From Styela clava (lineage: Eukaryota; Chordata; Ascidiacea; Stolidobranchia; Styelidae), in assembly GCF_964204865.1 (NCBI RefSeq), contig NC_135262.1, positions 11,966,001 through 12,030,000 of the forward strand: a stretch of 64,000 nucleotides of DNA, given 5' to 3'. Below, one piece after another: positions 24,989-55,200 of the stretch. The first letter of the stretch is position 1, and each line of letters starts with the position of its first letter. A program made the translations under genes and the position numbers. The notes below the pieces were generated by a model that was not told the DNA's origin, made no database searches, and was given only the letters and a program-made list of their open reading frames with translations.

Positions 24989-25435
24989 ATTTCTCAATTT
25001 ACCCTTCAAAATGACGGTAAAATTTACCGAACATTTCTTATAGTGTAACTTTTTATGTTGTTTACTTCCTGTTACGTAGGGTATGCTCTATTGTAACGAA
25101 ACAATAAAGTTACACACTACTTGCTGCGATTTCGCAAACTGCAATTTCTTTATAGAATGAACTGATCTGAGTGACCTTGAGTGATGGATTCAGTATTTCA
25201 AAAAAATCAGTCAGAGATGAGGAAAAAAGATTGACATTGTCTTTATTCTTTAGGCCTACAGGCTTCCACACTTCTGAAGCATAAAGTACATATTAACGAC
25301 CACAAAAACGAATTTTATTTGAAGGCAACAACTTGTTTTTGTCTAAGTGCTCCATGTGTTTATTCCCCGATAATTTGGCGCCGTACGAACAAAAATTTTG
25401 TAATCCGCTGTCTTAGTATGGGTTCCATTATCTTT

Positions 25436-26120
25436 GAACCCGCGTACATTTGCACCCGTACATCTGAACCCGTAATTTGAACCCAGAACAATTGCACCTG
25501 TATACTATTGCACCTATGGACATTTGCACCTACGGACATTTGAACCCATACGTTTCCACCCATGGATTTTAGCACCCACATATAGATTGAACCCGCGGAC
25601 ATTTGAACCCGTGTACGTTTGCACCCGCGTACATTTGAACCCATGTACATTTGCACCCGCGGACATTTGAACCCGTGTACGTTTGCACCCGCGTACATTT
25701 GAACCCATGTACATTTGCACCGCGGACATTTGAACCCGTGTACGTTTGCACCCGCGTACATTTGAACCCATGTACATTTGCACCCGCGGACATTTGAACC
25801 CGTGTACGTTTGCACCCGCGTACATTTGAACCCATGTACATTTGCACCTGCGGACATTTGAACCCATGTACATTTGAACCCACGAACATTTGCACCCTGG
25901 ACATTTGCACCCGCGGACATTTGAACCCATGTACATTTGAACCCACGAACATTTGCACCCGCGGACATTTGAACCCATGTATATTTCCACCCACAGACAT
26001 TTGAACCCAGGTATATTTGAACCTGCGTACATTTGAACCCACGGACATTTGAACCCGCGTATATTTGAACCAACGTATATTATATTTGAACTCGCGTACA
26101 TTTGAACCCACGCACATTTT
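25436..26120 (-). repeat. 16-bp minisatellite, left MULE arm
   Basis: Tandem 16-mers of the form ACATTTGMACCCRYGK. Units alternate between GAACCC and GCACCC and form a ~64-bp higher-order unit repeated about three times in the middle (25,570-25,860). The array is less regular at both edges. Because 16 is not a multiple of 3 and the minus strand lacks stops in the unit, all three minus-strand frames stay open for about 200 codons. These give spurious repeats of Gly-Phe-Lys-Cys and Trp-Val-Gln-Met type. They are not a protein gene. Confidence 0.95.
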
Positions 26121-26308
26121 CACAAAAAATGTTTGCCCCAACAGCAAATTCCAGTCGCAAATAATTTTCATGTTACAGGCGCAAGCTCAATATTCTAAAT
26201 TTCAACACTGTTTCATTTGTAGTTAGTTTTGGTGTATATGCATTTACCCGCTTCTACGAAGCTAACGTTATATCTACATTCGTTGTTGTACGGGGTACCC
26301 AGCGTAAG

Positions 26309-27211
26309 ATGAGAACGTACAATCCTATAGTTATACATAGAAATTTGGTGCAGAAGTTTGGAACACTAAAATCGGTACGTGTGCTTGGTTCTGGGGATTT
26401 GAAAATTGAATGTTCAAACGAAAAGCAAGTTAAACTATTGTTGGAATGTGATGATATCGGCGGTAGCACAACCAACATTCCAGTGAAGACCGAATTGTTT
26501 GTAAACAATGATCAAAATACTAGAGTAGTAATTAGCGATGTGCCAACTGACATGGCCGATAATGAATTGTTGGACGCATTATCTGGACAACGTGTTGTCT
26601 TTGTAAAAAGGCTTAATAGAAAAATCGAAGGCAAGTTTGTGCAGAGTAAATCAGTTCTATTTTGTTTTAACACATGCATTGTACCATCAATCGTGACTAT
26701 CGGCTATATGCGATTCAGGACCAGAGTGTATAACCCTCCACCGATTCGTTGTTTTAATTGCAATAGATTTGGCCATGTAGCTAAAAATTGTCGATGTAAA
26801 GTTCGCTGTGCCAAGTGCGGTAGAAACCACGAATATAATAAATGTGATTCCGAAACTACAAGATGTTGTAATTGTGGACAAGAACACAGCGCCGCATATG
26901 GTGGCTGCGAAGTATATAAACGGGAACGGTTGATTCAAAAAACAATGGCGAGTACTAGACCACCGTATGAGGAGGCAAAGAACCACATTAAGCAAACTAT
27001 TTCAGAAACTGCGCAATTTTCGGCAAATGATTTTCCGGCTCTTCCCAGTAAAGTTCCTTTTCAAGGAAGTACACCTGTCCTTATGATTAGAAAGTCGAAA
27101 GATATATTGTCATCAGACAAGTCATCTCAACAAGCGCCTATTATAGGCCAATATAGTCGCCCCAATCTCTGGACCCAATACATTTTTTCGCATTTATCGC
27201 AGAAGTCATAA
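26309..27211 (+). CDS. LINE ORF1, gag-like zinc-knuckle protein
   Basis: A 300-codon frame from the first plausible ATG. It should bind element RNA and form the particle used for retrotransposition. Three knuckles lie at about residues 148-204: CFNCNRFGHVAKNC, CAKCGRNHEYNKC and CCNCGQEHSAAYGGC. The frame ends prematurely at a TAA. A shift of one base in a six-T run (27,183-27,188) opens a continuation of about 55 codons to a TAA at 27,352-27,354. That continuation has composition like the rest, so the visible stop is probably due to a lost T (mutation or assembly error). Confidence 0.85.
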   Translation: MRTYNPIVIHRNLVQKFGTLKSVRVLGSGDLKIECSNEKQVKLLLECDDIGGSTTNIPVKTELFVNNDQNTRVVISDVPTDMADNELLDALSGQRVVFVKRLNRKIEGKFVQSKSVLFCFNTCIVPSIVTIGYMRFRTRVYNPPPIRCFNCNRFGHVAKNCRCKVRCAKCGRNHEYNKCDSETTRCCNCGQEHSAAYGGCEVYKRERLIQKTMASTRPPYEEAKNHIKQTISETAQFSANDFPALPSKVPFQGSTPVLMIRKSKDILSSDKSSQQAPIIGQYSRPNLWTQYIFSHLSQKS

Positions 27212-27323
27212 AAAATACGCTAGAGGTTTCTCAAAGTGGAAAAGAATGTGATGTTTACGCTATTGTCTCGATGTCCGCTGGCGCTCAATTTGGATTCGAT
27301 GTCGACGCTGGCAACCTTAATAA

Positions 27324-28988
27324 TGCAATAAAACAACATTCAACCAAAAAGTAAAATTAACTATCATCCAATGGAATTGCCGTAGTATATACCGGAAACT
27401 AGGTGAATTGAAAAACTTTATTAGTGCTTCACACCCGAAACCTGACGTAATAGCCATCCAAGAAAGCAATCTCACACCAAAGTATAATCCTAGCATACCA
27501 GGGTATACCCTAGTACGCAAAGATAGATTGATTAGTAAAGGTGGTGGCATCTTATTTGTTATAAAAAATAATATATCTTTTGTTGAAATACCTTTACAAC
27601 TTTTAAATGGCGCAGAAGCTCAAAGTGTTAGTTTGGGAAATCTTAAGATAGTCAATGTATACGTCCCACCTGATGTTAGAATTTCTCAATATGCCTTCGA
27701 ACGATTTTTTGATCAATTTTCACGACAAACAGTCTTTTGTGGGGATTTTAATTCACATCATTTCTTGTGGGGTAGCCCAACAAACAATCAACGAGGACTA
27801 GCTCTTGCTGGAGCTATTGACAGCACAGATTTAGTAGTACTTAACACCTCTGTTCCCACTAGGATAAATTTATCCCATAACAGAGTAAATAATTGGTCGG
27901 TATTGGATTTAACAATAGCATCTCCTGATGTTGCCCATAGATGTAATACAATTGTGACCAACGAGTTACTGGGAAGTGATCACGTAATGGTTAAAACTTA
28001 TTTTAACGTAACACAAGTCGGTGACACAAGTAATTACATGGAATCATGGCGACTCGATAAAGCAAATTGGGATAAGTTCTCGGAATTATGTAAAACGCGC
28101 ATCAGTGAGAATATAGTCACAAGCGATATAAATGAATTCAATGATTTTCTTACAAATGCGATTATCTCAGCAGCAAATGAATCAATACCACGAACAAAAT
28201 CCTACACAAAAAATGGCATCCCATGGTGGAATGCTGATTGCGACAAAGCCATACGGCTAAGAAAAGCGGCGTTCCTTAAAATGAAAAGGTCGATGTCCAT
28301 CGAAAATGTGATAATGTATAAAAAACGTAGATCTGAAGCAAGAAGAATAATATTGAAGGCTAAAAGGCAGAGTTGGCATGATTACTGTAGCTCACTGGAC
28401 AAGAATGAAAAACTCAGCAACGTATGGAAAATGGTTAGGCGCTTCACTAAAAGCAAGGTATACGAACAAATCCCCGGCCTTAAACACAATGGTATAACAG
28501 CAATCGAAGATTCCGAAAAAGCTGAGCTTCTGGCGAGTTCGTTCTCGGCGGTCAGTAGCAATGAAAACTACACTCCGAAATTTCTTCAAAGAAAGATCGC
28601 ATTCGAATCCTCACATGACGTAACAATCTTCAAGGCTAATCACAAATTGGATAAAAATATCACAATGAAAGAACTCAATCAAGTTTTAAAACCAAGAAAA
28701 AGCACTGCTCCAGGACTAGACAAGATTTGCTACGCGATGCTTATAAAATTGCCCGCAGAATGTAAAGACATATTACTCAAATTGTTCAATTTGATTTTGA
28801 ACAAAGGGAGTATTCCAGATACCTGGAAACGCTCTGTTGTAGTTCCGTTTCTTAAATCCAATAAACAAAAAGACCAACCATCTTCATATAGGCCTATATC
28901 TTTAACTAGCAATTTATGTAAGGTCTTGGAAAGAATTATAGTTCGCAGACTGAAGTGGTTTGTTGAAAAAAAATGGCATATTATGTAG
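27324..28988 (+). CDS. LINE ORF2, part 1: endonuclease and RT N-terminal part
   Basis: The frame is open from just after a TAA at 27,321 and has no ATG before the endonuclease domain starts (TIIQWNCRS at about 27,360). ORF2 may therefore be made by re-initiation or frameshifting from ORF1. Endonuclease motifs are IAIQES, VFCGDFNSHHFLWGS, VLDLTIAS and GSDHVMVK, the catalytic E, D/N and SDH residues. The RT begins with KSTAPGLDKICYAML and reaches SYRPISLTSNLCKVLERII. The frame breaks in an eight-A run (28,966-28,973), where seven A would join it to the next ORF. Confidence 0.87.
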   Translation, partial: CNKTTFNQKVKLTIIQWNCRSIYRKLGELKNFISASHPKPDVIAIQESNLTPKYNPSIPGYTLVRKDRLISKGGGILFVIKNNISFVEIPLQLLNGAEAQSVSLGNLKIVNVYVPPDVRISQYAFERFFDQFSRQTVFCGDFNSHHFLWGSPTNNQRGLALAGAIDSTDLVVLNTSVPTRINLSHNRVNNWSVLDLTIASPDVAHRCNTIVTNELLGSDHVMVKTYFNVTQVGDTSNYMESWRLDKANWDKFSELCKTRISENIVTSDINEFNDFLTNAIISAANESIPRTKSYTKNGIPWWNADCDKAIRLRKAAFLKMKRSMSIENVIMYKKRRSEARRIILKAKRQSWHDYCSSLDKNEKLSNVWKMVRRFTKSKVYEQIPGLKHNGITAIEDSEKAELLASSFSAVSSNENYTPKFLQRKIAFESSHDVTIFKANHKLDKNITMKELNQVLKPRKSTAPGLDKICYAMLIKLPAECKDILLKLFNLILNKGSIPDTWKRSVVVPFLKSNKQKDQPSSYRPISLTSNLCKVLERIIVRRLKWFVEKKWHIM

Positions 28989-31071
28989 AGAACAGAGCGG
29001 TTTTAGGTGGAGGAGATCTACAACTGATGCATATCTAAAATTACACGATGACATATATAAAGCTTTACCAAGTAAAAGATCTGTACTTGGCATTTTCTTG
29101 GACATGGAAAAAACGTATGACATGGTATGGAAAGGAGGACTTTTATACAAACTATATAACATTGGTGTCACCGGGAAAATTTGGATTTTTGTTGCATCTT
29201 TTCTGACAAATCGTTCATTTCAGGTTAGAGTAGGCAGTCGTCTTTCAAGTATATTCTCATTGGAAAACGGAATTCCTCAAGGGAGCGTAATCAGTCCACT
29301 GCTATTCAATATAATGATAAACGATATGCCTAGTACTATTTCATCAGATAATGTTGGATTGTTTGCAGACGATAGCGCTCTATGGCACATTGGTCTCAAT
29401 ATTGAAGATTTAATCATTTCCTCTCAGAACTCGTTGGATTGCATTCAGTCCTGGTGCAATCAATGGGGTTTTAAGATCTCGGTCACAAAATCAATAGTTG
29501 TACTCTTCACCCGAAAGAGAAAATTACCACCAATACAACTACACATAAACGGTGTAATACTCCCAGTCAGGAATGAAGTAAGATACCTCGGAGTCTATTT
29601 CGATAGGCGCTTAAATTATAAGAGACATATCGAATATGTTGTACAAAAATGTAGTAAACGGATTAATCTGCTGCGTTTGCTTATTGGAACTAGCTGGGGA
29701 GCTAACAAATCACCCCTTTTGTCATTGTACAGATCCCTAGTTCGACCCATTATTGAATATGGTATGGAAGCCTATTTTTCAGCATCAATAAATGCCATAA
29801 GAAAAATCGAAATTATCCAATCTCAATGTCTACGCATCGCTGCAGGTGGCATGATGAGTACGCCTAAAATTGCTTTACAAGTTTGTTGTAATGAGATGCC
29901 ATTGAGTATACGACGACTACAATTATGCCTCTTATATAAGGCTAAACTGCTAACATTTGTTGACCATCCTTGCCACGAAGTCATCGAACACTCATGGCAT
30001 GAAATATTTCCCAACTCTCCAGCATTTCGTACATTTGGTATGATTGCAAGGACTTTCGATATTGACAAATTGGATATTAGTATTATTAAAGCCGAAGAAA
30101 TTCCCCCATGGTATTTGGACGAAATTAATATCGACGATGCATTATCGAATATACTTTTTCCTTGGTATACGCCCGACCAAACAAAAGCTATAAGTTTGGA
30201 ATATATAAATGAATCCTATCAATCACACGTGCATATCTATATCGATGGGTCAAAAATTGATGACAAATGCGGTGCTGCGGTTTATGTTCCATATAATAAT
30301 TCTCGTATGTGTTTTAGGCTAGACAAAGACTGTTCCTCGTTTGATTGCGAAGTTTTTGTAATATATAGTGCCCTTACATGGTCAAAAAATAACTATAAAA
30401 GGAATATACTTGTCATATCGGATTGTATGTCTGCTATACACGCTATAAATAATAACTCGGATCAAATTAGTAATATATCTTCAAATATTCAGACTTGTCT
30501 TTTTGAGTTACAGGAACAAGGATGCAAAATCACACTAATATGGGCTCCAGGGCATGTTGGCATTCCGGGTAACGAAGTCGCCGACAAAATAGCAAAGGTA
30601 TCAGCGGCGAAAGTCGATGTGGACAAAAGATTATCCCAATCACAAAACAAAGTCAAATCACAAATTCGACAATTCTGCGCTAATAAATGGGATCAACATT
30701 TTATACAAAGTGACCAAGCGTTTCATAACACGACAATTTTCCCCTCAATTGAAGACAGCATCAAAAATTCCACTTGGTCACCACGAATAATGGACAAAAT
30801 TTTATTTCGACTTCAGACGGGACATTGCCGTTTAAATGGGCACCTCCATAAAATAGGATGCCATAATAATGGACTTTGCGATTTCTGTAATGATCCAGAG
30901 ACAGTAGAACATTTTCTAATGAACTGTCGTGCATATAGAAATGAAAGACGCATACTAAAGATGAAATGCCGCGATTATGGCATTGAATTTCAACTCAAAG
31001 CTATCTTACGCGACCCTAGCATTTTCCCTGCTCTTGTTGATTTTGTGAAATCTACCAAGAGAGTACTATAG
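28960..31071 (+). CDS. LINE ORF2, part 2: RT core, RNase H and Cys-His box
   Basis: Continues ORF2 in the +1 frame; the ATG-less start is an artefact of the upstream A-run indel. RT motifs include GIFLDMEKTYD, ENGIPQGSVISPLLFNIM and the catalytic LFADDSAL (FADD at 29,362-29,373). RNase H follows with the full D-E-D-D set: YIDGSK, FDCEVFVIYSAL, VISDCMSAIHA and WAPGHVGIPGNEVADKIAK. The end has the usual LFRLQTGHCRLNGHL and a C..C..H..C box (CDFCNDPETVEHFLMNC). All catalytic residues are kept, so the element is young. The only visible lesions are homopolymer indels. Confidence 0.9.
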   Translation: MLKKNGILCREQSGFRWRRSTTDAYLKLHDDIYKALPSKRSVLGIFLDMEKTYDMVWKGGLLYKLYNIGVTGKIWIFVASFLTNRSFQVRVGSRLSSIFSLENGIPQGSVISPLLFNIMINDMPSTISSDNVGLFADDSALWHIGLNIEDLIISSQNSLDCIQSWCNQWGFKISVTKSIVVLFTRKRKLPPIQLHINGVILPVRNEVRYLGVYFDRRLNYKRHIEYVVQKCSKRINLLRLLIGTSWGANKSPLLSLYRSLVRPIIEYGMEAYFSASINAIRKIEIIQSQCLRIAAGGMMSTPKIALQVCCNEMPLSIRRLQLCLLYKAKLLTFVDHPCHEVIEHSWHEIFPNSPAFRTFGMIARTFDIDKLDISIIKAEEIPPWYLDEINIDDALSNILFPWYTPDQTKAISLEYINESYQSHVHIYIDGSKIDDKCGAAVYVPYNNSRMCFRLDKDCSSFDCEVFVIYSALTWSKNNYKRNILVISDCMSAIHAINNNSDQISNISSNIQTCLFELQEQGCKITLIWAPGHVGIPGNEVADKIAKVSAAKVDVDKRLSQSQNKVKSQIRQFCANKWDQHFIQSDQAFHNTTIFPSIEDSIKNSTWSPRIMDKILFRLQTGHCRLNGHLHKIGCHNNGLCDFCNDPETVEHFLMNCRAYRNERRILKMKCRDYGIEFQLKAILRDPSIFPALVDFVKSTKRVL

Positions 31072-31100
31072 GCATATACAAAATTTTGATTTAAATTGTC

Positions 31101-31133
31101 TGGCGCAAAAGACTCAAATTGTTTAAAGCGCCA
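31101..31133 (+). other. 3'-UTR hairpin of the LINE
   Basis: A perfect 6-bp inverted repeat, TGGCGC (31,101-31,106) and GCGCCA (31,128-31,133), encloses a 21-nt loop about 30 bp after the ORF2 stop. It is followed by TATATTACC and a CA run. A structure here is a likely recognition site for the element's own reverse transcriptase; that role is inference. Confidence 0.5.
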
Positions 31134-31165
31134 TATATTACCATACCACACACACACACGAAGCA

Positions 31166-32212
31166 AGCATTTTTGAGTGTCATTGTAGTCCCTAGTCCGA
31201 GGGATAAACGTCTCTTAACGATATAAACAACATTGTTCTGCCAAGGTCTTTTTTCTTTTGCTGTTTTTTTTACATTGATATTTGTAAATCCTTATCTCCT
31301 TCGTTAGCCGCGATCTCCAAAACAGACGATGACCTAGAAAGCGGTATTTCGTTGAAATACCTGAAACAAGGGCTAATACGGAACAAATATCTCACAGACC
31401 AATGAAGTCTTAAATGCGGGTCTTACTAAAACTAGCTTTACAGTAATATTTTTAGTGGTCAACTCCTATAAATTTGTTCTGAAATTATTGCACCGAAAAC
31501 GCCTACTATGATATCCCGCCTAGCATGAGATTTGGGAGCTCTGTGGCCACTTCATGTTTTCTTGCTAGCATGTTTACAAAATTGTTATATGTATGCATAC
31601 ACGACCACGCTTTACTGTTGAAAATGAGTGTTGTCTCAAATCAGGTTTTGCCAATTTTCCTAAAATCAATCTATATATTGAATACTATTGTCTGTATATA
31701 AATAAATAAACGCACAGATTCGTCGTTTCTAAGAAAATATGAAATTAAGATAATGAAACTATGTCATTTTTGTAACAACATGTTCATAGCCAAATGCCAG
31801 TTTTATTGAAGTATTAGTTCATTAGAATGTCAGAACAAAACTATACATAGAAATCGTAAGTCATGTAAATATGTTGAATATTCGAAAGTGAAGAAGTTTT
31901 AAAATCATTATCGTGGCCAAAAATGGTTTTTGCTGTTTACACTATTTAGAGTAAATCGAACATATTCAGCTAATATGGTCTGTTAAATATGATATTGCAA
32001 TTTACAAACGACGTCATAGGTTACGGATTACATTTATTTTAATATCTCAATAAAGTTATCACTCACAAATTTGTGTCGAATGGGCGATCAATTTTGAGAT
32101 AGAGTAGCTATGGACGTTTTACAAAATAGGAATTTATCAATTATGATACAATAGTTAAACAACAAATCAAAATAATGACGATAAACGAAATTTTACGATA
32201 TCACGATCAAAG
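31166..32212. other. MULE interior, no gene seen
   Basis: Non-coding sequence between the nested LINE and the transposase gene. This is downstream of the transposase on its strand. No repeat or ORF of note. Confidence 0.45.
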
Positions 32213-33598
32213 TCAAATAGGCTGCATTTGAGCTATTGAGTGGAGATACCTCAGCTTGTCGGTTTCAGTTCCATATGAAAAAACTTTAACTGACAACCTA
32301 ACAGCAAGTTGTACATACTTTGATCTTTGGTGGGCCGTAACTCCTACATGAGCATTTGCCGCAGTCAGTTTGTAGACCGCAATGTCTTTTCGTAGGCCAT
32401 TCAGCAAACCCCATATACTCGGATGTTTGCATCGGAACATTCCTTGTAAGGCGTTGTGAAATCCTCATACAGCGTTTGTTGTTCTTGGGGCCGAAGGCAT
32501 CATTTCAATCTCTTTGGCATAGTTCCACAACCGAGGGGGAAATCTTGCTTCTCTTGGACGTGAACCCACTTGAGGTCCACGAATGTAGGTAGATTCAAAA
32601 TATTGCAAAAGTTGATTGCATTCGGGCGAATCTTCGAAGGTGTCGCAAAGCAAGGTGAAGACCTCGGCAACCTCGTTAATGGGAACAAAAGCCAGAGCTG
32701 CCAAACTCCTAATTTTCAGATTGAAAGAGGGTAAACATTCAAACTTCTCTTTCAATCCGATAGAACCAACTTTTTGAATTTTAGCTTGTGACAGGTGAAA
32801 ATAACATCCTTTAATATCGGCCAGAGGAAATTGTGCATGGAATGCATTGATAGCTGCTATTTCAAAATCAACAATGATTTTGGTAGGGTTAGCATTTGGG
32901 AAAATGATTTTCAACACTTCCCACATCTGAACGTATGTTTCTTGTCGCTTGTCTCGTAGGAAAAATACGCATGGTGGATAGGATGCGCCCACTTTACAGT
33001 GAATTGTATACAACTGGAAGAAAATACCGGGCACCACATCAAATGTACCGTCGCCAAGATATGTGACACTATCTAGATGTGCAAGTAGTGATCGATCTCC
33101 AATGGCCATTATCCGATGACGATCCTCCGGGCCAGTGTCATGCAAAATGATATCTAAATATTCGCTCGGAATATCAAAGCTTGCACTTGTAGGATTCGTA
33201 CGTGAACAATTTTTCTGTCGCCTTACTCTGCGTATATTGGCCTCCAGAGTCGACTTGCCTGGCAAGCGCATTAGTACATCTCTTGATCTATTATTCAATA
33301 CTTCACCTAAAATATATCTTGTCGATGTATTTGATGATGTTGATGCTGCTTCTTTTAATGTTGCACGGATGATCCCAACTTCAGTCTTAATGCTGTCGCC
33401 AGAATGACTGTGATATCCTAGTTCTTTTATTACATTTTCACCGATCGTAACAACAGTCGATTTACATCGAAATTTCCTAAACTGACGGCAGCGCCAATGA
33501 GTAGCATCTGAAACCCGATCCTTTCGCTTACAATATTCGTGGCCTTTGTAAATCAGTAAGTCGTTTCCTCTTGTGGTCTTGGAAAATGTAGACGCCAT
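32213..33598 (-). pseudogene. FLYWCH-MULE transposase with one internal stop
   Basis: Minus-strand frame from ATG 33598. Residues about 5-70 form a FLYWCH-type zinc finger (GNDLLIYKGHEYCKRKDRV, HWRCRQFRKFRCKS, ending GYHSHSGD). Residues about 170-285 form the MULE transposase core: YLGDGTFDVVPGIFFQLYTI with its Asp, then CVFFLRDKRQETYVQMWEVL, TKIIVDFEIAAINAF and KGCYFHLSQA. The frame stops at a TGA (32,465-32,467) after 377 codons. Homologous sequence continues in the same frame as GFHNALQGMFRC for about 84 more codons to 32,213. The TGA sits where the family usually has an acidic residue (NAVEG). One nonsense change thus separates it from a 461-residue protein. Confidence 0.85.
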
Positions 33599-33672
33599 GT
33601 TTCAAACTTATTTTCGCAAAGGGACTTGTCATCTTCGCTGCTGCAACGTCCTGAAGAAACAGTTTGGAATTG

Positions 33673-33784
33673 TCTGCGAGGGAAAAAGGGCATTGATGCG
33701 AGGAAAAACTTTGCGCGGGATCGAACTATCTGCGAGGGAAAAAGGGCATTGATGCGAGGAAAAACTTTGCGCGGGATCGAACTA
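33673..33784 (+). repeat. 56-bp tandem duplication
   Basis: Two perfect or near-perfect copies (33,673-33,728 and 33,729-33,784) of a unit starting TCTGCGAGGGAAAAAGGG and ending GATCGAACTA. They lie just upstream of the transposase start, in its probable promoter or 5' UTR. Confidence 0.9.
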
Positions 33785-33984
33785 ACACATCAGTTAAAAT
33801 CCTTGCTCGCGCTCTTCAAGAGTCGTCGACCGTTCAAAGCACAAATCATACTCCCCAATTTTGGGTCGCATTCTACAGCGGAACATTTTGTCCATTGAGT
33901 CTTATGATATCGACAACTGCGATGACAATGACAGACGGAGTATAATATAAATATATAATATAATTTAAATATTTAGAAAATGGT

Positions 33985-35028
33985 GACCGTACATTTGAAC
34001 CCACGTACATTTGAACCCATGTGTATATCCACGGGTTTAATCTATATGCGGGTGCTAAAACCCATGGGTTAGGGCTAGTATGGGTTCAACTATCCGAGAA
34101 ACAAAAAAAATATCATAGGTGCAATAGCATACAGGTGCAATTGTCATGGGTTCAAATGTACAGCCTTCGAGTATATAGTCGAGAATTCCATGGTAATATT
34201 GATTGTTTTCGCAACGTATGCATTTGGAGAAAGAATCCTAAGTGTACCTTCCAATCCTATATACCAGGGCTACTCAACTATTTTCACCAAAGCTCCGTTT
34301 ACGAAACTTCAAAATTACTGGGGTCCGGACATTACAGAAAATTTATTTCATCAAATAAGCGAAACTTCAAATTCAATATTGAATTAAATACAAGAGCAAT
34401 GAATGGCTCGCAAATATGGACACACATGTCGCACATCGGTACCAGTACGACAAACTGTACAGCTGTGTATTTAAATTGTATCAAAATCATTTAAAACTAT
34501 AAAACGATGCTTATGCTGCTAAAATAAACAAGCAAACGCGGTCCAAATTTTATGGTCGAAAGGTCCGGATTCGGACCGCGGTCCGCCAGTTGAGTAGCCC
34601 TGCTATATACTATAGTATATAGCATGGAAGGATAAGGGTGTATATGTAAAGACGCTGATATCCGTAAATGCAAATGCCCATGGGTGTAGATGTTCATGGG
34701 TGCAAATGTCTGTGGGTACAATTGTACGCGGGTGTAAAAGTACGCGGGTGTAAATGTATGTAGGTTCAAATGTCCGCGGGTGCAAATGTACATGGGTTCA
34801 AATGTCCGCGGGTGCAAATGTTCGTGGGTTCAAATGTACATGGGTTCAAATGTCCGCGGGTGCAAATGTACATGGGTTCAAATGTACGCGGGTGCAAACG
34901 TACACGGATTCAAATGTCCGCGGGTGAAAATGTCCATAGGTGCAATAGTATACAGGTGCAATTGTCCGGGGTTCAAATTACGGGTTCAGATGTACGGGTT
35001 CAAATGTACGTAGGTTCAAATGTGCTGT
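33985..35028 (+). repeat. 16-bp minisatellite, right MULE arm
   Basis: The same 16-mer family as the left arm, in inverted orientation (units like GGGTTCAAATGTACGC and GGGTGCAAATGTCCGC). The outer 34,640-35,028 part mirrors the left arm unit by unit at its tip, including the irregular units near 34,935-35,000 (CAATAGTATACAGG, CAATTGTCC). The array is interrupted by a hAT MITE at 34,265-34,602. Confidence 0.93.
34265..34602. mobile_element. hAT-type MITE nested in the MULE arm
   Basis: A 338-bp element with terminal inverted repeats CAGGGCTACTCAACT on both ends and a perfect 8-bp target duplication CTATATAC (34,257-34,264 and 34,603-34,610). No transposase. The 8-bp duplication and CAGGG start are typical of hAT elements. 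The right duplication falls in a perfect 22-nt palindrome. Confidence 0.9.
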
Positions 35029-35333
35029 CACCCTTAGTATGTATTCAGAACTATGCAAATATATGATATAAATTGTACACTTCATTGCAGGACTACTCGG
35101 TATATTTAGTCTTTGTTCAGTGATTCATCCGGGACATTAGTGGATGTACACTGCACAGATGTATATATATACGACAACAAATGTAACAAAGGCTTGAATT
35201 TGACATATGGACGAAAATTGATATTTTGCAGTATCTATTTTGTAAATCGCAGCCTATTAAATGATTTAGAAGTAATACGACTCGTACATTTTGGAAATTT
35301 ACTTCCGAATTGATAGATAGACAAGTCTCAGAT

Positions 35334-37208
35334 ATGAAGGTGATATGTGCAGGAATGTCTAAATGCGAAACAAAGTCTATGCATTCTGCATTGGAAGAAC
35401 TGGGGTATACAGTATGCGACTATATCGACGTGTTTGTTCACTTGGAGAAGAATTACATGAAATTCACTATCGAAGGTTGGAATTCTGAATTTCTATCAAT
35501 TTATAAAGATTACGATGCGTGTGTTGCCAGTCCGGCATATTATTTTTGGGAGGAATTGGTGGAGGTGTTCCCAGAAGCAAAGGTTAGAAATCATACATTC
35601 ATTCTAAAATTGTAAACATGGAAACGTTAATTAAGTGGCTTATCACTCTCATCATCAGCATATAAAATTCAGCATATAATTCTACATCAATATTAAAACT
35701 TTGGTTTTACTTCTACTATATAGCTAAAACAACTTTATTTCATTCAGTTTTTTGTTTTCCTAGGTTATATTGATGGTGAGAGACAATGATGAAATTTGGT
35801 ACAAAAGTATGAAGAAACAAATGATTGCGAGCGGTAGATTGCGTCGTTTCTACTATTCCCTTTTGTCGTCAACCTGGAGAAAATTTGCTGCATATTTGAA
35901 TAATCCATGTGAGATTTAAAGTTAGGATATTAAGTACTATACCGAGATAAACATATTGAAATTTGAACAAAAGTCGTTATTCCACACGTTGGAGAACGAG
36001 TGATATTGATAGTTCTATAATCTGATTGTATATGAATTTATACATTTGCAGGTTATCTTGCGTTTGGGCATAAAACAACCGGTATGTTCAATTTCACCTT
36101 GATCGATACACCAGTACTGCCTTTCAAGTTAGTTTATAGAAAACATATTGCTCATGTCATTCATGTAAGTAAAATAGTTTCTTTATCAAGTACATTACAG
36201 AAAATTATATACCTTCGGAATATACAATTGTTTCAAACGGACTCGACGTGTTTGGTATCGTGCCATACATATACAGTCAACCAAGTATACAAATACATCC
36301 ATTTGGGTGATGTACAAATACTGCCAATTCACAAGCATATTTCCCGTGTTAAGAACGATCAGCTGTTGTAAGGCATTATGACTTCATAGATTGCAATTTA
36401 GTGACATTCCTAACGGCTTACAATTACATTGAAACAATATAAATATAACAATATAGACTCTCGGATTTGAATGTTAATTTACGGAACCCCTGTACAGTCT
36501 TGGTGCAACAGGTTGAAAACCACTCGTCTAAACAAAAATCTCGTGTTGGAACAATCTGTATCACATAATCATAGTTTTGAGTCACTTTGCCAGGATTAGA
36601 ATATATATAATGCTCAAAATACATTTGTCAATATTAAAATGTTTTGGAGTTATATATTAACACAGCTTTTATGTATCGTTATGGCAACATCATTTTGAGG
36701 ATTACCGCTGAATGATGCTTAAAATCATAATAATGTTTTACATCTACTACACTTATCGTAAGCAACTTTGATCAATAGCAGTGTTGGAATTTCTGTAAGC
36801 ATTCATAACGCACTAATTATATCAGGTGTTGTGGGGCAATATGACTTCCCAGATTGCGACTTCCTATATATTCGTCCATTCGCCACGAGCAGCGCACGAG
36901 TAACGACCATAAGCAGTATCAGTTATATTTTCATCTGAATATTACTATTTATGCTTTTATTCTAGCATTGTCCAAAAAATCGACTTCTAATAATCCAATG
37001 CAAAAGTGATTGGAAACCGTTATGTGAATTTCTTGGTAAACCCATACCAACAAAACCATATCCATGGATAAACAAGGATGGTGAACTAGCGAATATGCTG
37101 TGGGAAATGCCTATTTTCAAGCAAGCTCAAAGAGAAATGTTAACAAATGTCACTATATTATTAGCTGGCATTCTGTGCTTGGGAATATATGTAGCAAAGA
37201 TGAAATGA
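35334..37208 (+). CDS. Sulfotransferase-like protein, gene 4 (block A), P-loop Gly to Glu
   Basis: Predicted 249 aa. Exons: 35334-35582 (249 bp), 35764-35908, 36052-36164 and 36966-37208, all with GT..AG introns. It is nearly identical to the block B copy at 49,200. Two changes stand out in exon 1. The nucleotide-binding loop reads SKCETKSMH instead of SKCGTKSMH. A 3-bp deletion removes one Asp in the WNS(D)EFLS stretch. The loop glycine is conserved in all other copies here and is expected to contact the PAPS phosphosulfate, so activity is doubtful although the frame is open. The MULE ends about 300 bp upstream. An octamer ATGCAAAT (35,053-35,060) and a possible 5'-UTR splice acceptor near 35,089 lie between. 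AATAAA lies at 37,616. Confidence 0.85.
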
Positions 37209-38318
37209 ATGATATGTTTCATTTTTGATATTGTTTTTATTTGTTGGCGTGTTTAGTTTATCTAGTTTGAATTATTCGCCAGAAAATTGTCTGTATTGAA
37301 AGAAGTCATATTTGTAGTGGATTAAAATTCCCTTTCAATACAGTATCTCGGAAATGCAGAAAACATAATTCAGAATAACTTTAAATGATTAGATTAGTTC
37401 ATTTCGAATTAATTCACATTAGAAATTTCTACAGTGGTACATTATCTTTCCGCATTTTTATATTGTAGTACATTGATTGTTTTATAATATACAATACCAA
37501 AACATTGTAAAATAGACAAACATTTTTATCTGAATTTAGTTCTCATATTGTCTAATTTGTCGGATGTAATCGTTTACCTACATTTTGTACTGTTTATTTG
37601 CATTTGCGTATGATCAATAAACGTAATTAAGAAGTTAAGAACCTTTGTTCCCAGAATGGATATCAGATCTAGTATTAGAAATCTGATAATCATTATGTAC
37701 TTCAACAACACTTTCGATGCGATATTTCGAAATAACGAAAATTCTTAAAGTTTGTGAGTGGATATGATATTATTCACGATAGTTTCTGTTCTTTTCAGAC
37801 AAAACTGTCACACCCTTGCAGTAATATTATATTGATATAATATAAGGGTTAATTGTATAAAACATAATATTAATAAACATAATAATATAAAACATTTTTG
37901 TTTGCCTGCAACTTTGTGAAAGTGAACTTGTTTTTCTTTGTGATATCAATAATCAAAGTCCTCATAAGTTCAGCCAGAAATATATACTGGTGTTGCGGGG
38001 ATCTATAAAAAACTAAAGCTCAATTGGACCTTCAAGAAGAATCTTAGAGACTTAAAATTATGAATCTATGCTGTTAATTGGCTCCATAAATGTTTTTTAG
38101 AAGTATTGATTTTTGTTTAAGTTATAATATTATTCGAATGTAAGCGCGCAAAATATTTTCGATACTAATTTTTTATTTAGGCGATTTGTAGACTTGCCCA
38201 TATCATCGTTCTGTCACTGTAAAAATTTACCATTACCTATGGTCTATATCTACATACTAGAGCAAAGTTTAAAAATGCATGTTTCATATAATATTTTATA
38301 ATTTTTTCCACAAATTAA

Positions 38319-39893
38319 TTAATATGGTATAAATGGAGGATATTGGCACTGAGTACCACATCCATTTGAACAACAAATTAATCCTTCCGTGCAGTCTACA
38401 TTTGATTTACATTCATTTGAGCAGATTCCAACTCTGTCGTCAACTGGAGGACATCGTGGGTCTGTAACTAAATTGAAGTGAATTAATAAACAATAATATT
38501 AATAGAAGATGTTGTCATCAGTTTTTTTGTTTGATTTTTTTTCAAAACATATTTATAAACTTGGAGCTAGAGTTGTGAAAAACTTCGTAGTTTGCCACTG
38601 CTCACGTAATGCCCTTCTTGCATGCCTTTATGGAGAAATTCTAAACAATAGTTTATCGAATCTGTTTGAATTGTTTCGCCGCATTTTTTTAAATCGACAT
38701 TCTTTAAAATATCAATAAAATCTTCAAACGGGTGCTTTGTGAAATATATTTAAAAATAATTTTTTCCGAAATAATATATATAAATGATTGAGAGATACAT
38801 TACAATTTCATGTTAGGCTACATACCGTTTTTAATCAGTATTCTATACCTCGTAGTATGAGCAAATGAGAGGAAAAGTACTTAAAAACTAAATTTATGTA
38901 GAAAGAAATCTTACATGGTGGTGAGATGCATCTTTGATGGCAACCATTATAGCAACATATATCTCCATTCTTGCATTGGTCATTACTGTAGCATGATGGT
39001 GGAAGACACAATATTCTTTTACGGAGTTCTAACATTCTTGGATTTATTGGCGGGCATCGTTCATCTGAAATTTGAAAGTAAATCCATGTTTTAGAACAAG
39101 AGTATGGGACTTTTTCATTCTATATTTTTAGAAAATATTATTTCTTGTATGAGCTCAATTATAATACTGCAAGAATTTGTCAGTTTTTTTGGGAACGACA
39201 AACAAATCTAAAGACCAATGATCACACACTCTCAAACTTGATAATTTTCCATTGTCTTGGATTTCCTCGTACTTAAAATATATTTGTTTCCTATTTTAAA
39301 TTTATATCTCGATACAGATTTGGTCAACTGCCCCATTCTTTCATTTAATTGAATTAGATAAATGGATTCAAATTATTATAAATTTGAAAGGAACAATCCC
39401 ATACCAAGTGGTGCTTTTACACATTGACTTCCACAGCCGTTCGAACAACATATTCTTCCGTAATTACAATCATTGTTTGAGTAACAATTATGAATACAAA
39501 CTCCTATTTGACCGGTTGCATAAGTGGCAGGACATTTTGGATCCCATCTCGGAAATAATCTGATCCCTAAAAGATGATAAATTAACTGTTAGTAATAATA
39601 TTATATTGTAACGCTTTATAATTTAATCAGATTTTATTGTCATTTTACTTTTTTATACATATAAAGTATTTCATCAAATACAGTTTATTGCTTTAAAAGA
39701 AATTCGTATTTTTACTAGGTTAGAAGATTTCAGTTAGTTATTATCCAGCAATCATAGGATATCACATGTTTCAATAATCGGAAATGCCTTGAAATAAAAA
39801 TTGAATTAAATTAACCAATTTCTAATAGTACAAACCTGCATTGACATAGGTGAAGTATAGAGCAAAAAAGATCACACTGGCAACTTTCATCAT
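38319..39893 (-). CDS. Secreted triple-WAP domain protein, WAP gene 1
   Basis: Predicted 170-aa secreted protein. Minus-strand exons are 39893-39836, 39566-39405, 39064-38915 and 38461-38319 (58, 162, 150 and 143 bp, GT..AG introns, all phase 1). Exon 1 is a signal peptide (MMKVASVIFFALYF...VNA). Exons 2, 3 and 4 each encode one four-disulfide core domain with eight cysteines, for example CYSNNDCNYGRICCSNGCGS, CYSNDQCKNGDICCYNGC and CKSNVDCTEGLICCSNGCG. WAP proteins are typically protease inhibitors or antimicrobials; which applies here is unknown. A TATA box lies about 100 bp upstream. One domain per phase-1 exon suggests growth by exon duplication. The gene is divergent from the broken WAP gene at 44,951. 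Confidence 0.9.
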
Positions 39894-39995
39894 ACTGTCG
39901 TTGTTTTTCTTTTAAAATTTTCGAAAATCTTTGTTCAATATTGTTTCTTGAAGGTGCAATTTTCAATCTGATTTGAGAACATAAGGAAACGGAGT

Positions 39996-40005
39996 CATAT
40001 ATATA
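39996..40005 (-). promoter_or_regulatory. TATA box of WAP gene 1
   Basis: TATATATATG on the minus strand lies about 105 bp before the ATG. It sits in a ~150-bp stretch (GACAGGATGTTAAG through the TATA box) that is conserved upstream of all four WAP genes. Confidence 0.6.
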
Positions 40006-44735: not shown

Positions 44736-44834
44736 CTTTTCTTTTGAAAATTTTTGAATTATGACAGGATGTTAAGTTATGGAGTTTCCCAGATAATTTA
44801 TACTTTAAAAACTCAAGGTCGTTCGCAATATAGC

Positions 44835-44844
44835 CTATATATAT
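44835..44844 (+). promoter_or_regulatory. TATA box of WAP gene 2
   Basis: TATATATATG, 107 bp upstream of the ATG, in the conserved WAP proximal region. Confidence 0.6.
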
Positions 44845-46210: not shown

Positions 46211-46212
<2 letters not shown>

Positions 46213-48476: not shown

Positions 48477-49199
48477 TTTCTCAATTTACCCCCCAAAATG
48501 ACTGTAAAATTTACCGAACATTTCTTATAGTGTAACTTTTTATTATGTTTACTTTCTGTTACGTAGGGTATGCTCTATTGTAACGAAACAATGAAGTTAC
48601 ACACTACTTGCTGCGATTTCGCGAACTGCAATTTCTTTATAGACTGAACTGATCTGAGTGACCTTGAGTGATTGTTTCAGTATTTCAAAAAAATCAGTCA
48701 GAGATGAGGAAGAAGGATTGACATTGTCTTCATTCTTTAGACCTACAGGCTTCCACACTTTTGAAGCATAAAGTACATATTAACGATCACAAAAATGAGT
48801 TTTATTTTAAGGCAACAACTTTTTTTTGTCTAAGTGCTCCATGTGTTTATTCCCCGATAATTTGGCGCCGTACGAACAAAAATTTTGTAATCCGCTGTCT
48901 TAGTATGTATTCAGAACTATGCAAATGTATGATATAAATTGTACACTTCATTGCAGGACTACTCGGTATATTTAGTCTTTGTTCAGTGATTCATCCGGGA
49001 CATTAGTGGATGTACACTGCACAGATGTATATATATACGACAACAAATGTAACAAAGGCTTGAATTTAAAATATGGACGAAAATTGATATTTTGCAGTAT
49101 CTATTTTGTAAATCGCAGCCTATTAAATGATTTAGAAGTGATACGACTCGTACATTTTTGAAATTTACTTCCGAATTGATAGATAGACAAGTCTCAGAT

Positions 49200-51124
49200 A
49201 TGAAGGTGATATGTGCAGGAATGTCTAAATGCGGAACAAAGTCTATGCATTCTGCATTGGAAGAACTGGGGTATACAGTATGCGACTATATCGACGTGTT
49301 TGTTCACTTGGAGAAGAATTACATGAAATTCACTATCGAAGGTTGGAATTCTGATGAATTTCTATCAATTTATAAAGATTACGATGCGTGTGTTGCCAGT
49401 CCGGCATATTATTTTTGGGAGGAATTGATGGAGGTGTTCCCCGAAGCAAAGGTTAGAAATCATACATTCATTCTAAAATTGTAAACATGGAAACGTTAAT
49501 TAAGTGGCTTATCACTCCCATCATCACCATATAAAATTCAGCATATAATTCTACATCAATATTAAAACTTTGGTTTTACTTCTACTATATAGCTAAAACA
49601 ACTTTATTTCATTCGGTTTTTTGTTTTCCTAGGTTATATTGATGGTGAGAGACAATGATGAAATTTGGTACAAAAGTATGAAGAGGCAAATGATTGCGAG
49701 CGGTAGATTGCGTCGTTTCTACTATCCCCTTTTGTCGTCGACCTGGAGAAAATTTGCTGCATATTTGAATAACCCATGTGAGATTTAAAGCTAGGATATT
49801 AAGTACTATACCGAGATAAATATATTGAAATTTGAACAAAAGCCGTTATTCCACACGTTGGAAAACGAGTGATATTGATAGTTCTAAAATTTGAGGAATT
49901 GTATATGAATTTATACATTTGCAGGTTATCTTGCGTTTGGGCATAAAACAACCGGTATGTTCAATTTCACCTTGATCGATACACCAGTACTGCCTTTCAA
50001 GTTAGTTTATAGAAAACATATTGCTCATGTCATTCATGTAAGTAAAATAGTTTCTTTATCAAGTACATTACAGGAAATTATATTCCTTCGTAATATACAA
50101 TTGTTTCAAACTGACTCGACGTGTTTGGTATCGTGCCAAACATATACAGCCAACCAAGTATACAAATACAGCCATTTGGGTGATGTACAAATACTGCCAA
50201 TTCACAAGCATATTTCCCGTGTTAAGAACGATCAGCTGTTGTAAGGCATTATGACTTTATAGATTGCAATTTATTGACATTCCTAAAGGCTTACAACTAT
50301 ATTTAAACAATATAAATATAACAATATAGACTCTCGGATTTGAATGTTAATTTACGGAACCCCTGTACAGTCTTGGTGCAACCCAGGTTGAAAACCACTC
50401 GTCTAAACAAAAATCTCGTGTTGGAACAATCTGTATCACATAATCATAGTTTTGTGTCACTTTGCCAGGATAATATATATAATGCTCAAAATACATTTGT
50501 CAATATTAAAATGTTTTGGAGTTATATATTCAATCAAGTAAAATACTTACAAACACAGCTTTTATGTATCATTATGGCAACATCATTTTGGTGATTACCG
50601 CTGAATGATGCTCAATATCATAATAATTTATTACATGTACTTTTACACTTATCGTGAGCAACTTGGATCAATAGCAGTTTTGGAGTTTCTGTAAGCATTT
50701 TTAACGCACTAATTATATCAAATGTTGTGGGGCAATATGACTTCCTATATATCCGCCCATTCGTCACGAGCAGCGGATTGTTAATGCAACGTTACCAACT
50801 GACTAGTAATTAATTGTAGCGACCATTAGCAGTATCAGTTATATTTTCATATGAATATTACTATTTTTTCTTTTATTCTAGAATTGTCCAAAAAATCGAC
50901 TTCTAATAATCCAATGCAAAAGTGATTGGAAACCGTTATGTGAATTTCTTGGTAAACCCATACCAACAAAACCATATCCGTGGATAAACAAGGATGGTGA
51001 ACTAGCGAATATGCTATGGGAAATGCCTATTTTCAAGCAAGCTCAAAGAGAAATGTTAACAAATGTCACTATATTATTAGCTGGCATTCTGTGCCTGGGA
51101 ATATATGTAGCAAAGATGAAATGA
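49200..51124 (+). CDS. Sulfotransferase-like protein, gene 5 (block B)
   Basis: Predicted 250 aa with exons 49200-49451, 49633-49777, 49925-50037 and 50882-51124 (252, 145, 113 and 243 bp). The PAPS loop is intact (AGMSKCGTKSMH). Other family landmarks are ASPAYYFWEELMEVFPEAK, VILMVRDNDEIWYKSM and NRLLIIQCKSDWKPLCEFLG. The hydrophobic C-terminal tail is TILLAGILCLGIYVA, then KMK. Compared with the block A copy it keeps the loop Gly and the extra Asp, so it is the better candidate for the working enzyme. It retains the original upstream region that the MULE displaced in block A. An octamer ATGCAAAT is at 48,919 and AATAAA at 51,516. Confidence 0.9.
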
Positions 51125-52218
51125 ATGATATGTTTTATTTTTGATATTGTTTTTATTTGTTGGCGTGTTTAGTTTATCTAGTTTGAATTATTCGCCAGAA
51201 AATTGTCTGTATTGAAAGAAGTCATATTTGTAGTGGATTAAAATTCCCTTTCAATACAGTATCTCGGAAATGCAGAAAACATAATTCAGAATAACTTTAA
51301 TGATTAGATTAGTTCATTTCGAATTAATTCACAGTGGTACATTACCTTTCCACATTTTTATATTGTAGTACTTTGATTGTTTTATAATATACAATACCAA
51401 AACATTGTAAAATAAACAAACATTTTTATCTAAATTTAGTTCTCATATTGTCTAATTTGTCGGATGTAATCGTTTGCCTACATTTTGTACTGTTTATTTG
51501 CATTTGCGTATGATCAATAAACGTGATTAAGAAGTTAAGAACCTTTGTTCCCAGAATGGATGTCAGATCTAGTATTAGAAATCTGATAATCATTATGTAC
51601 TTCAACAACACTTTCGATGCGATATTTCGAAATAACGAAAATTCTTGAAATTTGTGAGTGGATATGATATTATTCACGATAGTTTCTGTTCTTTTCAGAC
51701 AAAACTGTCACACCCTTGCAGTAATATTATATTGATATAATATAAGGGTTAATTGTATAAAACATACGTTAATAATAATAAACATAATAATATAAAACAT
51801 TTTTGTTTGCCTGCAACTTTGTGAAAGTGAAATTGTTTTTCTTTGTGATATCAATAATCTAAAGTCCTCATAGGTTCAGCCAGAAATATATACTGGTGTT
51901 GCGGGGATCAATAAAAAACTAAAGCTCAATTGGACCTTCAAGAGGAATCCTAGAAACTTAAAATTATGAATCTATGCTGTTAATTGGCTCCATAAATGTT
52001 TTGTAGAAGTATTGATTTTTGTTTAAGTTATAATATTATTCGAATGTAAGCGCGCAAAATATTTTCGATACTAATATTTTATTTAGGCGATTTGTAGACT
52101 TGCCCATATCATCGTTCTGTCACTGTAAAAATTTACCAATACCTATGGTCTATATCTACATACAAAGTTTAAAAATGCATGTTTCATATAATATTTTATA
52201 ATTTTTTCCACAAATTAA

Positions 52219-53790
52219 TTAATATGGTATAAATGGAGGATATTGGCACTGAGTACCACATCCATTTGAACAACAAATTAATCCTTCCGTGCAGTCTACA
52301 TTTGATTTACATTCATTTGAGCAGATTCCAACTCTGTCGTCAACTGGAGGACATCGTGGGTCTGTAACTAAATTGAAGTGAATTAATAAACAATAATATT
52401 AATTGAAGATGTTGTCATCAGTTTTTTTGTTTGATTTTTTTTAAGACATATTTATAAACTTGGAGCTAGAGTTGTGAAAAACTTCGTAGTTTGCCACTGC
52501 TCACGTAATTCCCTTCTTGCATGCCTTTATGAAGTAATTCTAAACAATAGTTTATCGAATCTGTTCGAATTGTTTCGCCGCATTTTTTAACATCGACATT
52601 CTTTAAAATATCAATAAAATCTTCAAACGGGTGCTTTGTGGAATATATTAAAAAATAATTTTTTCCGAAATAATATATATAAATGATTGAGAGATACATT
52701 ACAATTTCATGTAGGCTACATACCGTTTTTCATCAATATTCTATACCTCGTAGTATGAGCAAATGAGAGGAAAATTATTTAAAAACTAAATTTATGTAGA
52801 AAGAAATCTTACATGGTGGTGAGATGCATCTTTGATGGCAACCATTATAGCAACATATATCTCCATTCTTGCATTGGTCATTACTGTAGCATGATGGTGG
52901 AAGACACAATATTCTTTTACGGAGTTCTAACATTCTTGGATCTATTGGCGGGCATCGTTCATCTGAAATTTGAAAGTAAATCCATGTTTTAGAACAAGAG
53001 TATGGGACTTTTTCATTCTATATTTTTAGAAAATATTATTTCTTGTATGAGCTCAATTATAATACTGCAAAAATTTGTCAGTTTTTTGGGAACGACAAAT
53101 AAATCTAGAGACCAATGATCACTCACTCTCAAACTTGATAATTTTCCATTGTCTTGGATATCCTCGTACTTAAAATATATTTGTTTCATATTTTAATTTT
53201 ATATCTCGATACAGATTTGGTCAACTGCCCCATTTTTTCATTTAATTGATTTAGATAAATGGATTCAAATTATTATAAATTTGAAAGGAACAATCCCATA
53301 CCAAGTGGTGCTTTTACACATTGACTTCCACAGCCGTTCGAACAACATATTCTTCCATAATTGCAATCATTGTTTGAGTAACAATTATGAATACAAACTC
53401 CTATTTGATCGGTTGCATAAGTGGCAGGACATTTTGAATCCCATCTCGGAAATAATCTGATCCCTAAAAGATGATAAATTAACTGTTAGTAATAATATTA
53501 TATTGTTACGCTTCATGATTTAATCAGATTTTATTGTCATTTTACTTTTTTATACATATAAAGTATTTCATCAAAAACAGTTTATTGCTTTAAAAGAAAT
53601 CCGTATTTTTACTAGATTAGAAGATTTCAGTTAGTTATTATCCAGCAATCATAGCAAATCACATGTTTCAATAATCGGAAATGCCTTGAATTAAAAATTG
53701 AATTAAATTAACCAATTTCTAATAGTACAAACCTGCATTGACATTGGTGAAGTATAGAGCAAAAAAGATCACACTGGCTACTTTCATCAT
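52219..53790 (-). CDS. Secreted triple-WAP domain protein, WAP gene 3
   Basis: Block B partner of WAP gene 1, 170 aa. Minus-strand exons are 53790-53733, 53463-53302, 52962-52813 and 52361-52219. The signal peptide starts MMKVASVIFFALYF. Three eight-cysteine WAP domains follow, one per phase-1 exon. All splice sites are GT..AG and the frame is intact. It is very close in sequence to WAP gene 1; differences are mostly synonymous or in introns. Confidence 0.9.
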
Positions 53791-53892
53791 ACTGTCGTTG
53801 TTTTTCTTTTAAAATTTTCGAAAATCTTTGTTCAATATTGTTTCTTGAAGGTGCAATTTTCAATCTGATTTGAGAACATAAGGAAACGGAGT

Positions 53893-53902
53893 CATATATA
53901 TA
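53893..53902 (-). promoter_or_regulatory. TATA box of WAP gene 3
   Basis: TATATATATG on the minus strand about 105 bp before the ATG, within the conserved proximal region. Confidence 0.6.
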
Positions 53903-55200
53903 GGCTATATTGCGAACGACCTTGAGTATTTAATGAATAAATCATCTTGGAAACTCCATACCTTAACATCCTGTCGAAATTCAAAATTTAATATTTTATT
54001 AAAGAAATGATTTCATTGAAGGAGAAAATTCGAAAAGTGAATAATAGAATTGAACACGGGAGAAGTCTTATAGTGTTTTAATCGTATATACGTATACAAC
54101 GTATAAACAAAAATTAAGATATCCAAATGATGCAACAATCATGACATTGCTTTTTGACATAAAATCCCCATAAACATTTCGTGTACAAAATAAGAAGCTC
54201 GTCGTGACAAACTCATACTACCTGATTTCGATGGTGCAATTGACATCCTATTGCCTGCGGGTACATACGTACAACCATTGCAACTCACTGAGTCGAAAGC
54301 TTTTTTAGCTTTGAATATCAGGTATATTTATATACAATTAAAATTTATACCGAATACCAAAAATCAATGGACGTGACGAAATAGAGATTGTGGCTTGTCT
54401 CATTGAAAAAGATGACTTTTGACCAGATAAACCTTCTTCAAATAAATGAAGATAATATTTATGCTTACAATTTTGATTATTAAAGATATAGGTAGATTCC
54501 ATCGTGCGCTAACGGAGCATTTGTTTTTATTACGTGGAACATATGACGTAAGCATGGTGATGATGTAACGCGGGTATGATATATTTAAGTAATAGATCAT
54601 ATGAAAAATATTGTGCTGCACTATTAATAAACAAGGGTGAGAATAACAACAACTCCATGTTACTAAAAAAGCTTTGAGTGGCAAAAATGATTGGCGACTT
54701 CTTCTAGGACTGAAGGGTCATTCTATTTTAGTAAGCGACAAACTGGGTGTTAAAAAGATATTACACTGCTATATGGAGGGTAAAATTTCATCCGACCATA
54801 TTTCATAAAAAGTGGAAAATTGAGAAATTCATTGTTTTCAGTTTACAGTGTACAATTGATTGTATTAGCTAATGCTACAATCAAGTAATCTAGAAAAAAT
54901 ATATGTATTACATAATATTAAATATGTATTATAACAACGTTACAAAACTAAACGATATTAGAAATCTATACCAAATACAAAGTAATTTTTCTGCGTTTAC
55001 ACCTCGAAAAAGAACACCCTCATCTGCAAAGGAATTCATATCCGCATGGGAAGCGATGCAAAAGACCTTATAACAAGACTATTCAGGTGGACAGGTCACA
55101 GTATATAACGTTTACGAGCTTAAATTAATTTTTGTATCTTATTCAAATTAGGAGAAAGAAATACTACGAACCCTCGGCTGGGTGACATGACCCCCTAGGC

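Follow-up and report, generated by a model that had tools for sequence, protein, structure and literature searches.

A foldback-type MULE family with long arms of ~16-bp units in the ascidian Styela clava

Results

The window analysed here is a stretch of 64,000 nucleotides from the ascidian Styela clava (NCBI RefSeq assembly GCF_964204865.1, contig NC_135262.1, positions 11,966,001 to 12,030,000 of the forward strand). It contains an element of 9,612 bp (25421-35032) in which two inverted arms of tandem ~16-bp units enclose a transposase gene of the Mutator-like element (MULE) type, and both borders carry the 9-bp duplication CTTAGTATG (Table 1). The original prediction, made from the letters of the window, had described a MULE with such arms and duplications and with its empty site kept in a paralogous segment. 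We followed the element up in the window and in the genome (376.6 Mb, 379 contigs).

Table 1. Features of the window element and of its paralogous empty site, in window coordinates (TRF, Tandem Repeats Finder; LINE, long interspersed nuclear element; LTR, long terminal repeat; MITE, miniature inverted-repeat transposable element; aa, amino acids)
Feature	Coordinates	Strand	Basis
Left target duplication CTTAGTATG	25412..25420	+	Exact word count, flank alignment, comparison of copies
Left tip GGTTCCATTATC, unlike the right tip	25421..25432	+	Identical in 17/17 full-length copies
Left arm with 44 ~16-bp units; order fixed in the outer ~170 bp, inner part variable and with four units per 64-bp period	25433..26139	+	TRF, unit strings
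Non-LTR retrotransposon (LINE)	26263..31157	+	Domains; 7-bp duplication ACGAAGC
Transposase gene, FLYWCH finger and MULE domain, 377 aa, stop just before the likely catalytic glutamate	32465..33598	-	Pfam, frame comparison
Perfect tandem duplication (56 bp) upstream of the transposase start	33673..33784		TRF, copy comparison
Nested remnant of a ~0.2-kb MITE of this same family; tip GGTGACCG kept, other tip lost	33982..34161		Copy comparison
hAT-like MITE, ends CAGGGCTACTCAACT, 8-bp duplication CTATATAC	34265..34602		Copy comparison
Right arm, inverted, with about 20 ~16-bp units; four outer units absent from their usual places	34699..35020	-	TRF, unit strings
Right tip GGTGACAGCAC (read inwards)	35022..35032	-	Identical in 17/17 full-length copies
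Right target duplication CTTAGTATG	35033..35041	+	Exact word count, flank alignment, comparison of copies
Paralogous segment with related empty site, single CTTAGTATG at 48899-48907	48477..54626	+	Alignment

Besides its two copies at the borders, CTTAGTATG occurs only once more in the window, at the paralogous site, making three occurrences. The mean count in shuffled windows was 0.46, and three or more were reached in none of 100 shuffles. Within 25433-26119 TRF detected tandem repeats with periods of 16, 32 and 127 bp; in the interval 34669-35023 the period is 16 bp. Taken with the shuffles, this rejects a chance repeat as the source of the duplication or of the arrays. The 64-bp period of four units is visible in the unit strings, and matches in the genome are likewise spaced 64 bp apart, confirming the predicted organisation of the arms.

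The left flank of the element (24990-25420) is 95.1% identical to 48477-48907 over 431 bp, and the right flank (35033-40710) is 95.1% identical to 48899-54626 over about 5.7 kb. When the two flanks were joined and aligned to the window, we obtained one continuous match (48477-51947, 94.0% across the junction) that runs through a single uninterrupted CTTAGTATG with neither array nor scar. The predicted empty site thus exists and has a clean junction. A 501-bp query over this junction, the left 200 bp of which are part of another, high-copy repeat, was compared with the genome (best 40 of 649 candidates scored); among the 40 matches listed, both sides were matched only in the two window blocks, and no third paralog of the empty site was found. 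The most likely history, in our view, is an insertion of the window copy into one member of a pair of duplicated segments. Alternatively, the insertion could be older than the duplication, and the single site at 48,899 could stem from precise excision from the second block. MULEs are capable of precise excision: Muta1 elements of Aedes aegypti with 8-bp flanking duplications excised precisely in 25/29, 27/31 and 24/27 events (PMC5225508). As this is known for Muta1, the empty site favours, without proving, insertion after duplication. The scar-free site is compatible with both histories, but insertion after duplication takes one event and no excision, and we regard excision as clearly the less likely history, though one that keeps some weight.

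The presence of a MULE transposase gene was verified by Pfam, which found in the 377-aa open reading frame (ORF) a FLYWCH finger (PF04500, E 2.3e-11, residues 5-65) and a MULE domain (PF10551, E 1.4e-8, 35.5 bits against a cut-off of 27.6). The longest frame of the family, in copy L021, has 462 aa and contains a likely DDE triad (D183, D245 and E379, by motif position). Its residues C37, C45, H63 and H65, assigned by motif, are the likely zinc ligands of the finger. In the window copy the triad is incomplete: the frame ends at residue 377, where that of L021 continues with the likely catalytic glutamate, so that the window copy would be mobile only in trans. A transposase search of the genome (best 109 of 178 candidates scored) gave at least 113 matches, which were merged into 76 loci; a few were only 50-70% alike and many were damaged. 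Nine near-complete stop-free matches with open frames of 446-465 aa were among those listed, and start-to-stop frames of at least 440 aa were present in five distinct insertions [L021/L030, L025/L042 (450 aa), L036, L038 and L046]. Viral contigs were also scanned for transposase relatives; 10 stretches matched the pattern and none was confirmed.

Using the arm as query, we obtained 47 matches in the genome (from the best 40 of 1,947 candidates) and extracted 20 stretches. Both tips, with at most two substitutions, were present in 16 of them, which together with the window copy gave 17 full-length elements of 3.7-9.6 kb. All 17 pair an exact left tip with an exact right tip at the opposite end, and no full-length element with two like tips was found in the 21 stretches examined. 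Exact target duplications of 9 bp flank 11 copies and exact duplications of 8 bp another five, so that 16/17 copies lie within the range of about 8-11 bp that marks MULEs. The same ends and duplications therefore recur across the genome and, together with the exact borders and the MULE domain of the window copy, bear out the assignment to this superfamily. The 56-bp tandem duplication is doubled in ten copies and single in seven. A tree of the 17 cores had several weak nodes, and L019 and L021 carry the doubling yet group with copies without it. Exchange between copies or the weak nodes may account for this mismatch; since the duplication departs from the core tree, we use it as a descriptive marker only.

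The 34 arms of these copies differ in length, with 24-60 units on the left (median 37) and 20-41 on the right (median 30). They thus show the combination expected of foldback elements, long inverted ends with internal tandem repeats that vary between copies. The variation is unevenly distributed. In the outer block (about 170-180 bp), seven diagnostic units, scored with at most one substitution each, stand at identical positions (42, 70, 86, 102, 132, 148 and 165) in 26/34 arms; unit M was left out, its probe also matching unit I. Eight arms depart from this pattern: the window copy's right arm, with four units missing, L018L and L019L, which are shifted, and L011R, L013L, L015R, L016R and L024R, in which one or two units were unrecognised. 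The inner array repeats units D-C-A-B at the 64-bp period. In five pairs of copies with less than 1% core divergence the left arms are 2 to 20 units apart, from which we infer that inner arrays change faster than the core; L009, L010 and L012 each retain 37 right units. Inner units are probably gained and lost by slippage or unequal exchange. The original proposal that the arrays expand or shrink like satellites therefore holds for the inner part of the arms and fails for the outer ~180 bp, where most arms keep the seven units fixed.

Conversion between the two arms of one copy, by foldback pairing, could in principle keep the arms alike, and some unit variants are indeed common to left and right arms within a lineage (e.g. 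unit 'e' in L009). However, over the outer 330 bp of the 34 arms, the identity between a copy's own left and right arms was 0.9484 and that between copies 0.9478 (permutation p = 0.30). Own arms are no more alike than the arms of other copies; we rejected within-copy conversion for the outer block and consider it improbable as the process that keeps the arms alike.

The same ends are found on much shorter DNA. MITEs of 0.17-0.2 kb have the tips GGTTCCATTA and GGTGACCG, closely similar to those of full-length copies, and are built of the same ~16-bp units. Among the rows listed, they matched the outer arm block over 46 bp at 93% and over 38 bp at 97%, in each case going inwards from the left tip. 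A two-ended MITE pattern was matched 3,179 times in forward orientation and never in the reversed control. Since 50 listed forward matches corresponded to 32 places, scaling to the full number gives an estimate of about 2,000 copies. All 16 extracted MITEs have both tips (at most two substitutions each); their lengths are 203 bp (eight), 187 bp (six), 202 bp and 170 bp (one each), and the difference between 187 and 203 bp is one unit. Where both flanks were long enough, the target duplication was an exact 9 bp in five of six MITEs and had a single mismatch in the sixth. Ten MITEs had a short flank; in five of these, four bases of the second flank were available, and they agreed with the first flank in every case. 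A further MITE, adjoining L018, has an exact 9-bp duplication. At an intermediate size, L067 is an arms-only element of 748 bp with both tips and, by eye, the exact duplication CTTAAGTAT on both sides.

The original prediction had further suggested that such an element could seed satellite DNA across a genome. On such a reading, arrays would expand in copies, escape and found free satellite DNA. The unit number of inner arrays does change quickly, and there is a precedent in Tetris of Drosophila virilis, a foldback element whose internal repeats became a satellite (PMC4079207). A 28-base two-unit pattern had 3,931 matches in the genome and none in the reversed control; among the 100 matches listed, dense clusters lay by eye in two full-length elements and the rest were MITE-like. 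With a 72-base pattern for the 64-bp repeat we obtained 235 matches, the first 100 of which form 81 clusters with a longest run of two. For 78 of these clusters, a transposase match is no more than 12 kb away. The other three are the short elements L065 and L067, each with both tips, and L066, which has one tip within the extracted stretch. Hence no free satellite array was shown among the 81 assembled clusters, L066 being seen at one end, and the dispersal of units looks due to MITE copies. In the part of the matches listed, pattern searches and clustering leave the free-satellite reading and the seeding claim unsupported, and we consider seeding very unlikely.

These data also bear on the reverse relationship, in which a MULE inserted into or between blocks of a pre-existing 16-bp satellite and the arrays are host DNA and not element ends. 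In isolation the arrays do look like minisatellites. Nevertheless, the arrays lie between the target duplications and are capped by the same tips in 17/17 copies. The succession of outer units is shared by the two arms and by different copies, the empty site lacks an array, and the listed clusters include no array shown to be free. An origin of the arms as host satellite is scarcely credible in view of these observations.

The window copy is long because of later insertions, which make up about 5.4 kb of it; without them the element measures about 4.2 kb. The original prediction did not mention the LINE, the hAT-like MITE, the remnant of the family's own MITE, the unequal tips or the truncated transposase frame. 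The LINE has a zinc-knuckle ORF1, endonuclease, reverse transcriptase and RNase H domains and a (CA)n end, and its ORF2 is split into two frames that overlap at 28960-28988. With the ten longest alignment rows considered per copy, none of the other 16 full-length elements showed a match to it. The MITE at 34265-34602 is presumably hAT-like, a name given from its end sequence. It and the nested MITE remnant are common to the window copy and its sister copy L026, and the LINE is not; both MITEs were thus probably present in the common ancestor. In L026 the MITE at the place of the 33982-34161 remnant has kept the opposite end.

A separate observation concerns copy L021, where a second, 92-bp relative of the MITE is nested at about 5232-5324 with GTTTCAAAG on both sides, by eye. 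In the neighbourhood of the window element, segments are mutually duplicated at 91-95% identity (35033-40710 and 48899-54626; also 43649-46684 and 54622-60066), making it a local segmental duplication cluster. A TGTA microsatellite of about 58 copies with 98% matches lies at 4387-4617.

Discussion

In this study we describe one family of elements with unequal tips, arms of ~16-bp units and target duplications of 8-9 bp. Its transposase, with FLYWCH and MULE domains, reaches 462 aa, and short derivatives are numerous. The window element very probably belongs to the Mutator (MULE) superfamily, as a DNA transposon of foldback type that moves by cut-and-paste. The mixture of 8-bp and 9-bp duplications supports this, being paralleled by Muta1, with 8-bp and 9-bp duplications in 21 and 39 of 60 insertions (PMC5225508), and by Tm1 of Meloidogyne root-knot nematodes, with duplications of 8-10 bp in 45/53 (PMC3169594).

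Several observations weigh against this interpretation or complicate it. Copy L010 has no target duplication. Of the 20 extracted stretches, four gave the left tip only. Two of these, L022 and L023 (C16, at about 2.32 Mb and 2.26 Mb), share 99.6% identity over 7 kb, flanks included, which indicates a segmental duplication carrying the same element copy. The arms-only element L065 (458 bp) has an imperfect duplication and a left tip with one changed base. The dN/dS ratio (nonsynonymous to synonymous substitution) of the longest frames is about 0.75 (five rows, two of them the same copy), meaning that constraint on the transposase is weak and selection barely visible. Finally, the empty site need not mean insertion, as loss from the second block is also possible given the precise excision of Muta1.

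A third arm similar to those of L022 and L023 was seen at C16 2.19 Mb.

On the cut-and-paste reading, transposase from less damaged copies would bind units in both arms through its FLYWCH finger, pair the ends and cut at the two tips. Binding of FLYWCH to the 16-mer, which the original prediction considered possible, is plausible by analogy. The outer units of fixed order that adjoin the tips would then be the functional end. Any DNA with these tips and some units could thereby be mobile, MITEs in trans included, which would account for the arms-only element of 748 bp as well as for the MITEs, about 2,000 by our estimate. The window copy itself would have inserted into one duplicated segment and then been hit by the LINE.

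It is also conceivable that the arms have two compartments with separate roles, the fixed outer block being the end recognised by the transposase and the inner array adjusting mobility by keeping transposase close to the ends; copies would then compete via array length. We hold this division of labour to be unlikely. Close copies (less than 1% core divergence) vary in inner array length and keep a mostly constant outer block, and the family is therefore a good natural series for the role of repeat number in ends of this kind. It adds a large and well-populated foldback-type MULE family (76 transposase-match loci, with MITEs estimated at 2,000, in a single genome of 377 Mb) and leaves the picture of the MULE superfamily unchanged.

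Judged from the literature searched, the family is new kin, with longer arms, of the foldback MULEs known from nematodes and mosquitoes. The comparison covers the available parts of the respective reports. The N-terminal FLYWCH finger (PF04500 at residues 5-65) followed by a MULE domain recalls the Phantom MULEs (group 20), which have 8-10-bp duplications, a FLYWCH domain in some members, terminal inverted repeats (TIRs) of 18-613 bp and, in aphid members, a minisatellite after the transposase ORF (PMC6446971); the likeness is one of features. Tetris has foldback structure and internal tandem repeats in its TIRs as well. Its repeats, however, are of ~220 bp, it is apparently non-autonomous, and it has real satellite arrays, none of which was shown here among the clusters listed (PMC4079207).

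The combination of features is itself not new, since Tm1 and Muta1 have it. Tm1 (Tm1-A, PMC3169594) encodes a FLYWCH and MULE transposase of 496 aa and has a variable number of ~14-bp tandem units in its arms, unequal outer tips (the 7-bp motifs A1 and A2) and target duplications that are mostly of 9 bp. Its description likewise includes a paralogous site that is empty, a nested insertion and numerous short derivatives resembling MITEs. In contrast to the 20-60 units per arm found here, Tm1 has 1-9, and its longest element measures 2.6 kb. The two families have different unit and tip sequences. In Tm1, each species examined had one transposase copy, compared with 76 matched loci here, and the transposase is predicted to have seven exons, unlike the single open frame in S. 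clava. Moreover, the Tm1 finger as described lacks the last histidine, which is present here.

Muta1 (PMC5225508) shares 8- or 9-bp duplications and a FLYWCH-DDE transposase with related MULEs and with our family, and its residues D214, D283 and E419 are comparable to D183, D245 and E379. In Muta1 a terminal motif is likewise followed by subterminal tandem repeats (12 bp with a 3-4-bp spacer); it is classed as type 2 Foldback and has derivatives with variable repeat number. It differs in its 145-bp TIRs with nine repeats, compared with 20-60 units per arm here, and in its terminal motif, a 10-bp imperfect palindrome; the available part of its description has no 64-bp higher-order period. Muta1 transposes in yeast and moves derivatives with different TIR lengths. 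It is the closest tested model, and ordinary MULE cut-and-paste with foldback-type ends is the best-supported account of the S. clava family.

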